This document shows positions 4,373-55,439 of a stretch of DNA of 64,000 nucleotides, piece by piece. A program made the translations under genes and the position numbers. The stretch comes from Deferribacteraceae bacterium. GTDB lineage: Bacteria; Chrysiogenota; Deferribacteres; Deferribacterales; Deferrivibrionaceae. A model generated the notes under the pieces. That model saw nothing but the letters and a program-made list of their open reading frames with translations. It was not told the DNA's origin and did no database searches. Positions within the stretch are counted from its first letter, which is position 1; the number at the start of each line of letters is the position of its first letter. The stretch lies in the NCBI GenBank assembly GCA_020054865.1, contig JAIHAR010000001.1:62001-126000 (forward strand), given 5' to 3'.

Positions 4373-5347
4373 ATGACAAAGCCAAGAAGCAGCTTTGTTT
4401 CCCTTGAAGATACAAGCTGGTATCATTGTGTATCAAGATGTGTCCGTAGAGCGTTTCTGTGTGGTGTTGATTCTGCTACCGGTAAAGACTTTGACCATCG
4501 CCGCCAGTGGATTGTGGATAGAATGAAGCAACTTACGGAAATTTATTCTATTCATATCGCAGGTTATGCTATCATGAGTAATCATTATCATATAGTTTTG
4601 AAAATCGATCAGAATTCTGTCAATGAATTGTCGGATGAAGAAGTTTTATTAAGATGGAAAAAACTTTATCAAATACCCTACTATGCTAATGAATATCTAA
4701 AAAATAAAAGTAAGTTACCTTCTTATGACAGAGAACTTGCAGAAAACTATATTAACAAAATAAGAGAAAGGTTATATAACATTTCCTGGTTTATGAAATC
4801 CTTAAACGAATACATTTCCCGCAGTGCCAATAAAGAAGATGGCACAAGAGGTCACTTTTGGGAAAGCAGATTTAAATGTCAGGCCTTGCTTGATGAAAAA
4901 GCAATATTGTCTGCTCTTGCCTATGTTGATTTAAATCCTATTCGTGCAGGAATCTCAGATTTACCCGAATCATCAGATTTCACTTCCATAAAAGAACGTA
5001 TAGAATGTGAAAAAGAATCAAAAGTTCCTGATAAATTAATGAAATTTGATACAGAAGAAAAAGAAAAAAACGCTATTCCTTTTGGATTTAAAGAATATTT
5101 AGAACTTGTTGATTGGCTTGGCAGAATCATTAGAGAAGATAAAAAAGGTAGCATAGACAAAAGTAAACCTAAAATCTTAGAAAGGCTTGGTATATCTGTC
5201 GACGGATTTGCCGAATATTCAGATAAGCTGCTGAAAGAATTTGGAAATGCTGTTGGGTCTCCGGAACTTATTCTTAATATTTGTACTTCGAGAAATCTTA
5301 AAGGTATTAAGGGAATTAAAGCAGCTAAAAAATTATTTGCGGCATAA
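4373..5347 (+). CDS. REP-associated tyrosine transposase (RAYT, IS200-like Y1 family)
   Basis: A 324-aa HUH endonuclease of the Y1_Tnp family. The metal-binding HUH motif is HYH in MSNHYHIVLKID (about residues 75-85). The N-terminus has the family-typical WYHCVSRCVRRAFLCG, and SALAYVDLNPIRAGI is the usual conserved segment after the catalytic tyrosine region. The C-terminal 120 residues form a helical extension seen in longer members. The ATG is preceded by AGGAGG; an in-frame ATG 10 codons upstream has no ribosome site. These enzymes nick and join single-stranded palindromic REP sequences and are often domesticated. Short repeats lie directly upstream, and the gene looks intact. Confidence 0.9.
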   Translation: MTKPRSSFVSLEDTSWYHCVSRCVRRAFLCGVDSATGKDFDHRRQWIVDRMKQLTEIYSIHIAGYAIMSNHYHIVLKIDQNSVNELSDEEVLLRWKKLYQIPYYANEYLKNKSKLPSYDRELAENYINKIRERLYNISWFMKSLNEYISRSANKEDGTRGHFWESRFKCQALLDEKAILSALAYVDLNPIRAGISDLPESSDFTSIKERIECEKESKVPDKLMKFDTEEKEKNAIPFGFKEYLELVDWLGRIIREDKKGSIDKSKPKILERLGISVDGFAEYSDKLLKEFGNAVGSPELILNICTSRNLKGIKGIKAAKKLFAA

Positions 5348-50389: not shown

Positions 50390-50410
50390 AAAAAGCGACC
50401 AGAGGCCGCT
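50386..50410 (-). terminator. Rho-independent terminator of the purine/selenoprotein operon
   Basis: On the minus strand AGCGGCC (50410-50404), loop TCT, GGTCGCT (50400-50394; one G-T pair), followed by seven or more T. It begins at the stop codon of the YuzD-like gene. Confidence 0.85.
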
Positions 50411-50763
50411 CATGGTGTCACATTTAGTTTATCTATAATTTTACTGTATATCTTTTCTGCTTCCTCATCCCCCCAGCAAAGAGGTTTGCCATTAAGTGTG
50501 ACATAAGGCAGGGGGAGTCTATTTTCAACAATAGTATTAACATCATCGATATAATCCAACACTTCCGGTGAAGAGATATCCACATAGTGAATATCAAAAT
50601 TATTCACACCAAGCTTTTTGGATAAAAGTGCATCCAATTCATTTGCAAGTTCAAAGTATGGGTCGGTCTTAATCCCGCAACCTGCAGGAAAATATGAAGG
50701 GCTTCAACCTGATACAAAGTCCATACTCGTACCGAAAAGTCTTATCTTGTTTTTTTCTTCCAT
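50410..50763 (-). CDS. Probable selenoprotein: thioredoxin-fold, YuzD-like, in-frame TGA at codon 20
   Basis: Read through the TGA (50706-50704), the frame encodes 117 aa: MEEKNKIRLFGTSMDFVSG, then U (Sec 20), then SPSYFPAGCGIKTDPYF and on. AAGGAGGG precedes the ATG with proper spacing, 15 bp after purF. The part after the TGA alone has no such signal. The strand-turn-redox-helix start, the FDIHYVDISSPE strand, a cis-Pro loop (LPLPYVTLNGKPL) and a C-terminal helix fit a thioredoxin fold. They resemble YuzD (DUF1462), in which CxxC stands where VSGU is here. Cys 29 could pair with Sec 20. A SECIS-like hairpin lies 14 nt downstream of the TGA. The alternative is a nonsense mutation, but there is no other damage, and the ribosome site, hairpin and terminator are all intact. 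Confidence 0.8.
50673..50689 (-). promoter_or_regulatory. SECIS-like hairpin downstream of the in-frame TGA
   Basis: On the minus strand TCCTGC, loop AGGTT, GCGGGA: six pairs (one G-U) and a loop beginning AGGU. Fourteen bases separate it from the TGA. The known E. coli fdhF element has the apex UGC-AGGUCU-GCA at a similar distance (15 nt between UGA and its upper stem is my recollection). The conserved loop G and U needed for SelB binding are present. Confidence 0.75.
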
Positions 50764-50778
50764 TTTGTCCCTCCTTGC

Positions 50779-52167
50779 TTATTTTTCCTTGGGATTATAC
50801 TCATCGGTTTCAAGATGCATAGTAGGATAATCGCCGCTGAAACAAGCATCGCAATAACTCATCCCCTCAACGCAACTGCAAAGCCCCTGCAGACTGAGAT
50901 AACCAAGACTGTCTGCAGTTATATATTTTCTAATTTCGTCCAGGTCGTGTGTTGAGGCAATTAGCTCTTTTCTTGTAGGTGTGTCTATACCATAAAAACA
51001 AGGGAATTTTGTCGGCGGAGAAGACACTCTAAAATGCACCTCTTTTGCTCCGGCCTCTCTTAACATTTTTACAATCTTTCTGCTGGTTGTCCCTCTAACT
51101 ATTGAATCATCAACAACCACTACCCTTTTTCCGTTTATAACTGACTTTACCGGATTTAATTTAATTTTTACCCCAAAATGTCTGATAGACTGAGCAGGCT
51201 CTATAAATGTCCTGCCTACATAATGATTTCTAATAAGGCCAAGCTCAAAAGGAATTCCGCTTTTTTCAGAATAACCTAAAGTGGCAACAATCCCTGAGTC
51301 CGGGACAGGGACAACAATATCTGCGTCAATAGGATTTTCCTCCGCAAGCTTTGCACCCATTTTTTTTCTGATATCATAAACATACTGACTGAATATCATA
51401 GAATCAGGTCTGGCAAAATAAATAAATTCAAAAATACATGGTTTTGGAACAATTTCCTCAAAAGGTTTAAGACTCTTGATTCCATCTTCACCTATTATTA
51501 TCATTTCCCCTGGCTCTATCTCACGGATAAACTCTGCCTCTATCAAATCAAGTGCACAGGTTTCACTTACCAAAACATAGCCAGTTCTTTTTTTGCCAAG
51601 AATTAGAGGCCTTATTCCAAGAGGGTCTCTTATGCCAATCATATGGTTTTTGGTCATAAAAATTATCGAATAGGCACCTTTTAGCTGTTTAAGAGAATCA
51701 ATTATGGCATCTTCAAGGGTCTTCATTTCACTTTTTGCAATCAGGTGAATTATTATTTCACTGTCTGAGGTAGAAGTAAAAATAGCACCATTCTTTACAA
51801 GCCTTTCTCTTATCTTATAAGCATTTACAATATTTCCATTATGTGCAAGTGCCACCTGCCCTTTATTAATCTCAGCTACAATGGGCTGGGTGTTTTTAAG
51901 AAGATTGGCACCGGAAGTGGAATATCTGTTATGCCCTATTGCCACATCACCCTGAAGTTTCATCAACTTATCTTCAGAAAAAATATCATTTACAAGGCCA
52001 AGCCCTTTTTCGGCATGAATTTGCCCATGTTTTAGGGCAGCAATACCTGCTCCTTCCTGACCTCTATGCTGAAGAGCGTATAGGCAAAGATAAACAAGGT
52101 TTGCCGCCTCGCTATCTCCGTAGACGCCGGCCACACCACATTCTTCTTTAAATTTATCAAAAATCAT
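50779..52167 (-). CDS. purF: Amidophosphoribosyltransferase (PurF)
   Basis: First committed step of purine synthesis: PRPP plus glutamine to phosphoribosylamine. The 462-aa protein has a short propeptide before the N-terminal nucleophile Cys ([10 protein letters not shown]). The glutaminase motifs are GHNRYSTSG and HNGNIVN, and the PRPP loop is [19 protein letters not shown]. Cysteines in [19 protein letters not shown] and two earlier positions match the iron-sulfur type of Bacillus PurF. It overlaps purL by 4 bp. Confidence 0.97.
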
Positions 52168-54395
52168 TGCATCTTACCTTTTATAGCATTTTCATAAATA
52201 TACTTGGCAGCAAGAATATTTACATCTATTATCTTTCGGCCTTTATTCCTAATGGAAATAAAATTACCAACCGTTTTTCCTGCAATCATGTAAAAAAGCC
52301 CATATTTCTTAAGAAGTTCTTCTACTTTCTCAAGATTAAGAGAGCTTACCTCAATGATTGCCCTTGCCTGACTTTCAGAAAATAGCAAAAAGTCATCTCT
52401 CACATCCTCATTGAAACTAACCTCACAACCTATTTCATTCTCAAAAGTCATCTCAGCCAGTGCGACGGCAAAGCCACCTTCGGAGATATCGTGAGCAGAA
52501 TTTAGCAATTTCCTTCCGGAAGCATCAACCATAAAATCTATAAGTTTTTTCTCAGCATCGAGTTCTACTTCCGGAGCATCACCTGCTACCAAATTATGAC
52601 AAACTTTCAGGTATTCGCTTGCGCCAATTTCATATTTATCCTTGCCAACCACAATAATGTGGCTATTGAAACTTTTAAAAGAAGATTTCAGCGTATTTTT
52701 CACATCATCAATAGCACCTACCATTACAATTGTTGGGGTAGGATATACACCTTTACCTTCTGTTTCATTGTAAAAACTTACGTTTCCGCTTACCACAGGT
52801 GTATCAAGGGCAAGACAGGCTTCCTTCATACCTTCAAGAGCTTCTACAAATTGCCACATTATCTCAGGCTTTTCAGGATTACCAAAATTAAGACAATTTG
52901 TAATGGCAAGCGGTTTTGCACCGCTCATTGCAACATTTCTTGCAGCCTCTACAACTGCAAGGCTTCCACCTTTCTTAGGATTTACATAACAATATCTTGG
53001 ATTGCAATCGCTTGAAAGCGCTATCCCTTTTCTTGATTCCTTGATTCTGATTACTGCTGCATCCGAGCCTGGTATCACAACAGTATTTGTTCTGACCATA
53101 TAATCGTATTGTTCAAAAACCCACCTTTTGGAAGCAATGTTTTGACTATTTAGAAGGTTGAAAAGGCAGGTGTTAAGATCATCAATCTTTTTCAGCTTTA
53201 ACGGAGAAAAGCTTCTTAAATCTTCAATATATTCAGGTTTTTTATATGGTCTGTCGTAAACAGGGGCATTGTTTGAAAGAGGATCAGCAGGTAAAAAGGC
53301 CACTTCCTCGCCATTCCAGAATAATCTTACAAAGCCATCGTCTGTAACCTCACCAATTATTGCAACATCAAGATCCCACTTTTTAAAAATTTCGATTACT
53401 TTTTCTTCAAACCCTTTTTTGGCAACCATCAGCATTCTTTCTTGAGACTCAGAAAGCATTATTTCGTAAGGTGTCATCCCCTTTTCCCTTACAGGGACTT
53501 TGTCAAGGTAAAGCTTTACCCCTGAGCCCGATTTGGATGCCATTTCAAAAGATGAGCTTGTAAGCCCTGCTGCACCCATATCTTGAATGCCGATTATATA
53601 CTCGTTTTTCATAAGCTCAAGACACGCTTCAAGAAGGAGCTTTTCTTTAAATGGGTCGCCAATCTGTACGTTTGGCCTTTTGCTTTCAGAATCGGCACTA
53701 AATTCTTCACTTGCCATCGTGGCACCGTGGATACCATCTCGTCCCGTCTTAGCACCCACATAAATTATCGGATTGCCCACCCCTTCAGCCTTTGCCAGAA
53801 ATATTTTATCTTTCTTCACAATACCCAATGCAAAGGCATTTACCAGAGGATTTTTTTGATAACATTCGTCAAAGAAAACTTCTCCACCTACCGTAGGCAC
53901 CCCAAAACAGTTTCCATAACCAGCAATACCGGCAACAACGCCATCCATGATTTTTATTGTTTCGTCATTATCCAGTGTCCCAAACCTGAGAGAGTTCATT
54001 GCTGCAACAGGCCTTGCGCCCATGGTAAACACATCTCTTAAGATTCCTCCAACACCCGTAGCGGCACCCTGATACGGCTCTATGTAAGAAGGGTGGTTGT
54101 GGCTTTCTACCTTGAAGCAGGCACAGATATCACCATCAATTTCAATAATCCCTGCATTCTCTCCCGGCCCCTGAACAACACATTTTCCTTGGGTAGGAAG
54201 CTTTTTGAGGTGAATTTTACTGCTTTTATAACTACAATGCTCGCTCCACATCGAAGAAATAATTCCGATTTCTATATAATTTGGATTCCTGCCAAGAATT
54301 TTTTTGGCAAGTTCATATTCCTCAGTTTTCAGTCCCATCTCTTTTGCAATTTTTTCATCAACATCTGGGTAATTAAAAGAATTATATACGCTCAT
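52164..54395 (-). CDS. purL: Phosphoribosylformylglycinamidine synthase subunit PurL
   Basis: ATP-dependent FGAM synthase, small-type PurL of 743 aa that works with PurQ and PurS. Motifs include [13 protein letters not shown] (catalytic His), [54 protein letters not shown] and the C-terminal [15 protein letters not shown]. It overlaps purQ and purF by 4 bp each. Confidence 0.98.
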
Positions 54396-55090
54396 ATTCC
54401 ACCTTTAAGATACTTCTTGACGGAGTTGAATATATGAAATCCATCCATATTGCCCAAAATCTCCTCTGCACACCTTTCAGGATGGGGCATCATTCCAAGT
54501 ACATTCCCTTTTTTATTGACAATTCCGGCAATATTATCCACAGAGCCGTTTGGATTTGCATCATCGAAAGTCTCCCCGGTTTCGCTGCAATATCTGAAAA
54601 CTACCTGTTCGTTTTCAATCAGTTCATTAAGACCTTTCTCATCTATAAAATAATTACCGTCCATATGGGCAATGGGTATTTTAATAATCTCTCCCGGCGT
54701 ATAAAATCTTGTAAAAGGTGTGTTTACATTGCTCACAACAAGATTTACGTTTTTACATATAAATTTAAGATCCCTGTTTCTTAAAAGTGCTCCCGGCAAT
54801 AACCTGGTTTCAGTAAGCACCTGGAAACCGTTGCAAATACCAAGCACAAGGCCACCTTTCTCTGCAAACTCAACCACAGAATCAATAATCTCTGAATGAC
54901 TTGCAATAGCCCCGCATCTTAAATAATCTCCATAAGAAAATCCACCCGGCAATACTATAAAATCAACCCCTTTTAAATCTCTCTCTTTGTGCCACAAAAA
55001 TACAGTGTCCACTTCCAAAACATGCTTCAAAACGTGATAGCAGTCATGGTCACAATTTGAACCGGGAAAAACAACTACCCCTGCTTTCAT
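54392..55090 (-). CDS. purQ: Phosphoribosylformylglycinamidine synthase subunit PurQ
   Basis: Glutaminase component of the FGAM synthase complex, 232 aa, class I amidotransferase. [14 protein letters not shown] is at the start, the nucleophile Cys is in GICNGFQVL (about 87), and the His/Glu of the triad are in [13 protein letters not shown]. It lies 2 bp after purS. Confidence 0.97.
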
Positions 55091-55092
55091 AA

Positions 55093-55329
55093 TTATTCAC
55101 CTACTTCAATGCTGTATTCTTCAATAATTGGGTTTGCAAGCATCTTTTTTGAGATTTCATCAATCTTTTCATTAAGGTTTTCTGTCTTGGAAACCTCAAG
55201 CTCAAAGATTTTTCCAACCCTAACGCTATCAATAAAATCATAGCCGTTTCTCTTTGCTGACTGCAATATAGCTTCACCCTGAGGGTCCAATACCGTCTCT
55301 TTAAGTTTAACATAAACCTTTATTTTCAT
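55093..55329 (-). CDS. purS: Phosphoribosylformylglycinamidine synthase subunit PurS
   Basis: A 78-aa structural subunit that links PurL and Pur[21 protein letters not shown] and [13 protein letters not shown] are family-typical, as is the end [13 protein letters not shown]. The second of two close ATG codons was chosen because GAGGT is 6 nt from it. First gene of purS-purQ-purL-purF. The 110-bp gap upstream lacks a clear promoter. Confidence 0.95.
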
Positions 55330-55439
55330 CTGCATACCTCGAGTTTTTCTTAAAACTTAGCACAAAATAAGGAAAGTGTCATTGATTTTTTGCTCCAAAT
55401 TCAATCAATAAGGTTTAGGAACAAAATTATTAAAAATTA

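Follow-up and report, generated by a model that had tools for sequence, protein, structure and literature searches.

A gene directly behind purF in the window (the whole 64,000-nt stretch of DNA analysed here) very probably encodes a genuine selenoprotein, in which the UGA at codon 20 would be read as selenocysteine (Sec). The gene, referred to here as yuzD-U, stands for a new family of selenoproteins with a distant kinship to YuzD (DUF1462) and adds to the known selenoproteins a family that current catalogues and annotation models miss. Insertion of selenocysteine at this codon had been suggested by a sequence-only reading of the same DNA. The suggestion was supported by the conservation of the UGA, the conservation of the reading frame, a covarying hairpin, co-occurrence with the Sec machinery and a constant gene order with purSQLF, and the three grounds named beforehand on which it could have fallen (the machinery, the homologs and the hairpin) all left it standing. 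In the proposed mechanism, SelB and Sec-tRNA(Sec), positioned by a hairpin downstream of the UGA, would decode codon 20 as selenocysteine, giving a 117-residue protein with a thioredoxin fold and a presumed selenol redox function.

The coordinates of the features are given in Table 1. The yuzD-U frame opens with an ATG at 50763-50761 and is interrupted by a single in-frame TGA, codon 20, at 50706-50704; 97 more codons follow before the TGA stop at 50412-50410. The strong Shine-Dalgarno sequence, the ATG, the single TGA, the 97 codons, the stop and a terminator-like hairpin were all found where the sequence-only reading had placed them. That reading had also predicted that a standard annotation would keep only a 75-aa fragment, and this was borne out by the table-11 ORF list, in which the region is represented only by a TTG-started fragment of that length (50410-50637). 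It is expected that yuzD-U is truncated by annotation in every genome carrying the gene.

Table 1. Features of the yuzD-U locus in the window and of related loci elsewhere (positions outside the window are given with locus or contig).
Feature	Position	Strand	Basis or remark
yuzD-U, putative selenoprotein gene	50410..50763	-	117 codons + TGA stop; frame conserved on both sides of TGA
In-frame TGA, proposed Sec codon (G-U-S-P-S)	50704..50706	-	20/20 homologous copies
Shine-Dalgarno AAGGAGGG upstream of yuzD-U ATG	50768..50775	-	sequence
Intrinsic-terminator-like hairpin, then T run	50393..50411	-	sequence
SECIS-like hairpin TCCTGC-AGGTT-GCGGGA	50673..50689	-	compensatory changes; bSECIS model
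purF, amidophosphoribosyltransferase	50779..52167	-	keeps Cys ligands of the Fe-S type; 15 nt before yuzD-U
purL, FGAM synthase large subunit	52164..54395	-	named from sequence
purQ	54392..55090	-	named from sequence
purS	55093..55335	-	named from sequence
UGA-containing selD of source genome	L107:538-1449 (G000:C63:26337-27248)
Remote Cys-rich relatives FPCGPQSSCCGPIGQ, other phyla	L111:43-369, L113:1501-1821, L112:1480-1827

Homologs of yuzD-U were searched for in 51 genomes of the phylum Deferribacterota. Twenty close copies were identified in 19 of the genomes, distributed over seven genera and five families, and one relative was found in a Calditerrivibrio MAG, by which the window is assigned to this phylum. 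When the copies were read codon by codon, codon 20 was TGA in every one of them, preceded by S-G and followed by x-P-S; no Cys, other sense codon, TAA or TAG was found at this position among the 20 copies, a constancy far above what chance would give. The homolog check proposed in the sequence-only reading thus revealed neither another residue at codon 20 nor a displaced stop. For codons -16 to -1 relative to the TGA, dN was 0.245 and dS 2.4, and for codons +1 to +14 the values were 0.207 and 1.0, which indicates strong purifying selection on the flanks at both sides of the TGA. One genome (G025) has two purSQLF-yuzD-U blocks on contigs C7 (L074) and C16 (L076), both with the UGA; this is either a true duplication or an assembly mixture.

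In the window a TTG start is located 23 codons past the UGA, and the reading frame before the UGA has a strong Shine-Dalgarno sequence of its own. The locus could on these grounds make two products, a 19-residue leader ending at the UGA and an internally started protein, with the hairpin acting in translational control. We consider such an arrangement very improbable. Two homologs (L017 and L021) are without any in-frame ATG, GTG or TTG after the TGA, so that their downstream part must be translated through it and internal initiation cannot account for the selection observed there; in three further homologs there is no start codon for 59-89 codons past the UGA. Moreover, the invariant residues P22, S23, G28, C29, G30, D34, P35 and Y36 precede any possible start in the window, the UGA is never swapped for UAA or UAG, and yuzD-U co-occurs with the Sec machinery.

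The hairpin claimed in the sequence-only reading is present as described, starting 14 nt past the TGA and comprising six pairs and a possible loop-closing A-U pair. In the published model of bacterial SECIS elements (bSECIS), a stem of 4-16 bp carries a loop of 3-9 nt with a G within its first two nucleotides, the distance from UGA to loop is 16-37 nt, the MFE is <= -7.5 kcal/mol, and the loop follows the pattern N1-G[G/U]N-N2, with N1 and N2 paired. The hairpin in the window agrees with this model in full: its energy is -9.1 kcal/mol (hairpin alone), its UGA-to-loop spacing is 20 nt, and its loop A-GGU-U corresponds to N1-G-G-N-N2 with N1 and N2 paired. Like the bacterial SECIS model, and apparently like the fdhF SECIS of E. 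coli, it is a small stem-loop just past the UGA, but it has a single short upper stem. Some relatives depart from the model by one mismatch or by an energy above -7.5 kcal/mol, the latter being the case in L014, L015, L016 and L028. A scan of Rfam gave no match.

Evidence for the hairpin came from comparison of 19 aligned copies. In the six-pair stem 93% of the cells were paired, compared with 44-61% when the partner was slid, and the covariation score of the stem was 0.337 versus 0.07-0.19 for the slid partners; 14 stem cells had changed on both sides. The same stem was recovered unprompted by RNAalifold. The outer pair was kept in 19/19 copies as C-G, U-A, U-G or G-U, with at least five changes of state on the tree. 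The third base of Phe25 covaries with the first base past GGG (Fisher 0.001), and the third base of Cys29 covaries with base 1 of the Ala/Thr codon (Fisher 0.0008), both values being uncorrected for kinship; the six copies with Ser at the Ala/Thr codon have one mismatch there. As judged from the alignment, pairing is maintained by compensating, partly synonymous changes, and the hairpin, whose loss in relatives had been named as evidence against selenocysteine, persists in them. The folding check proposed in the same reading gave a divided result: the fit to the bSECIS model was complete, but the single-sequence folding energy was unexceptional relative to shuffled sequences (z about -1), and the MFE of a longer stretch around the hairpin corresponded to a different structure. 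Single-sequence folding was for these reasons not taken as support, and the case for the hairpin rests on comparison, not on folding energy.

The source genome has tRNA-Sec (selC), and its SelD is a selenoprotein itself, with an in-frame TGA in the motif A-A-G-U-A-A-K-I-G-P. Neither selA nor selB was found in the source assembly, which is 87.8% complete, and an intact EF-Tu-like match was likewise not seen there. Both congeners of the source genome carry selA and selB. In one of them (G012) the two genes adjoin a membrane-protein gene whose source counterpart abuts the edge of contig C31; the match reaches L083 position 5133 at base 88 of C31, and the congener selB ends at 5289. Because the neighbouring gene of the congener corresponds to the end of C31, selA and selB are presumed to be in an assembly gap, and a gap next to C31 is the likely cause of their absence. 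That absence was rejected as a refutation, as C31 breaks off just short of where selB is expected. The expectation of Sec machinery in the genome was therefore borne out for tRNA-Sec and UGA-containing selD, and for selA and selB in the congeners but not in the assembly itself. Across the phylum, yuzD-U was present in 19 of the 23 genomes whose selD contains a UGA and in 0 of the 28 others (Fisher 1.8e-10; related genomes are non-independent). Two genomes from other families of the order (G038 and G050) have SelB and UGA-containing SelD without yuzD-U.

The distribution of the gene bears on what is inserted at codon 20. Any readthrough preserves the frame, and UGA could in principle be read with another residue, by a near-cognate Trp or in a reassigned code. 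The chance of this is slight, given that yuzD-U tracks the Sec machinery, that the hairpin fits the bSECIS model and that no homolog has Trp at codon 20; TGA is also the normal stop of yuzD-U, so the code is not reassigned. Least probable of all is a pseudogene or sequencing error, in which an otherwise normal YuzD-like gene would have acquired the TGA as a nonsense mutation: a single in-frame stop, a draft assembly and a truncated table-11 ORF would agree with it, but it is refuted by the conservation of the TGA, since all 20 copies, from seven genera, carry this very stop between flanks that are under strong purifying selection.

The yuzD-U product is a true, though distant, relative of YuzD. 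The Pfam profile PF07315 (DUF1462) matched it with 25.9 bits against a gathering cut-off of 25, over profile positions 20-92 only, and left the N-terminal CxxC region unmatched; none of the matches of the relatives was above the cut-off, and a DUF1462 match at E <= 0.1 was obtained for 15/19 members. An AlphaFold model of the product had a pLDDT of 73.5, with the Sec loop (residues 16-31) poorly predicted (pLDDT about 41). The best PDB match of the model in Foldseek was 1xg8 (E 2e-4, prob 1.00, TM 0.56-0.60), the YuzD protein SA0798 of S. aureus, followed by ArsD, glutaredoxins and thioredoxins. The same entry was the best match in a profile search of the PDB (hmmsearch, E 0.006), and hhalign to YuzD gave 92%; a PDB search with a single yuzD-U protein sequence yielded only a chance lectin match.

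Both proteins have a thioredoxin-like fold, a length of about 110 residues, a Y-[IV]-D-[IV] strand and a cis-Pro region, at 22-27% identity. The active loop of YuzD is Cys-Ala-Ser-Cys, whereas that of yuzD-U is V-S-G-U, without the first Cys, and the yuzD-U loop is longer, with a conserved later Cys29. The description of the gene as YuzD-like in the sequence-only reading was correct as to kinship, but the relationship is distant, the PF07315 score barely passes and the CASC motif is lacking. Its placement of the TGA at the redox position of the fold fared similarly: Sec sits in the loop that follows strand 1, the site of the CxxC in YuzD, but the correspondence of Sec to one or the other YuzD Cys is ambiguous. 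In the unmasked alignment Sec lies over the second YuzD Cys, and in Sec-masked alignments this Cys is placed either at the residue that precedes Sec or close to Cys29. We did not retain Sec as a replacement of the second YuzD Cys, which is seen in one alignment only and shifts when Sec is masked. No homolog with Cys at the UGA position was found in the 51 Deferribacterota genomes. Sec20 may be the redox-active residue of this loop, and Cys29 is a candidate for its redox partner.

No selenocysteine-containing member of the YuzD family was known to the sequence-only reading, and our searches agree. None of the 19 yuzD-U members was matched by a model of NCBIfam 20.0, and neither PF07315 nor YuzD is listed among the 119 prokaryotic selenoprotein families catalogued in 2026 (PMC13188914). 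Searches of openly accessible journal papers returned nothing relevant linking DUF1462/YuzD with selenium, or on selenoproteins of Deferribacteres or Denitrovibrio. Selenoproteins with a thioredoxin fold are already known (Trx, Grx, SaoT, VPGUxxT, Sec.1/Sec.2, DsbG-like); they too have a UGA in the active loop, but none is DUF1462-like. The omission of yuzD-U from catalogues could be explained by the workings of a published selenoprotein predictor, which retains only candidates with known Sec homologs or Cys homologs; its authors note that selenoproteins without Cys homologs may be filtered out.

The order purS-purQ-purL-purF-yuzD-U on one strand was observed at 19/19 loci in 18 genomes including the source, a count that leaves out the nineteenth carrier (G016), near-identical to G014 at yuzD-U. 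Linkage to the purine genes, described as unexplained in the sequence-only reading, is thus no local curiosity but is kept in every carrier examined. Nearly the whole of the source PurF can be aligned to its counterparts in B. subtilis and plants, the N-terminal catalytic Cys behind a short propeptide included, and it retains the Cys residues by which the B. subtilis enzyme holds its Fe-S cluster. These positions are presumably the cluster ligands, and the PurF encoded here probably has a [4Fe-4S] cluster.

The purF linkage, together with the Fe-S neighbours of YuzD, suggests a role in protecting or repairing Fe-S or thiol groups. The yuzD-U product might act in thiol/selenol redox or in Fe-S maintenance for oxygen-sensitive enzymes, with PurF as the first candidate client; we put forward the protection or repair of PurF and its Fe-S cluster tentatively. 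Similarly speculative is an unrecorded Sec-only YuzD-like branch, lacking Cys forms in its phylum, that has co-evolved with purSQLF and whose dedicated task is to protect or repair the Fe-S enzyme PurF in a selenium-dependent way, which, if true, would link selenium directly to purine biosynthesis. An even chance is given to a selenoprotein with a role unrelated to PurF or Fe-S, its purF linkage being operon hitch-hiking, a reading that rivals the proposed role only and not the selenoprotein claim. It agrees with three Bacillales records in which yuzD is located away from purF. Against it, the purF-yuzD-U order is kept although the genes behind it vary from genus to genus, PurF carries the Cys residues of the Fe-S type, and yuzD in Priestia and Staphylococcus, which does not follow purF as yuzD-U does, adjoins genes for NifU-like protein, FAD oxidoreductase and YuzB and further genes of Fe-S assembly. 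The conserved linkage to purF suggests that selenium and purine synthesis are connected, and it provides a handle on DUF1462 function.

Outside the phylum, a wider genome search detected only remote Cys-rich relatives of ars type (L111-L113). Their genes adjoin permease, ArsM-like or ArsC-like genes (names judged from sequence) and so lie in arsenic-type clusters. ArsD and proteins of this kind were the second and later Foldseek matches and gave weak profile matches from other phyla; unlike the yuzD-U product they have several Cys and no Sec, and their neighbourhoods are of the arsenic type. Within Deferribacterota, a second, divergent UGA-containing subfamily, paralogous to yuzD-U, was observed in two genera (L030, G023:C2:132625-132987, and L093, G019:C5:152571-152867). 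The two proteins have the motif C-x-x-G-U-M-P and 33% identity to each other, and both genes have as neighbours one gene for a methyltransferase and one for a cytochrome-b5-like membrane protein. This subfamily is probably another new selenoprotein.
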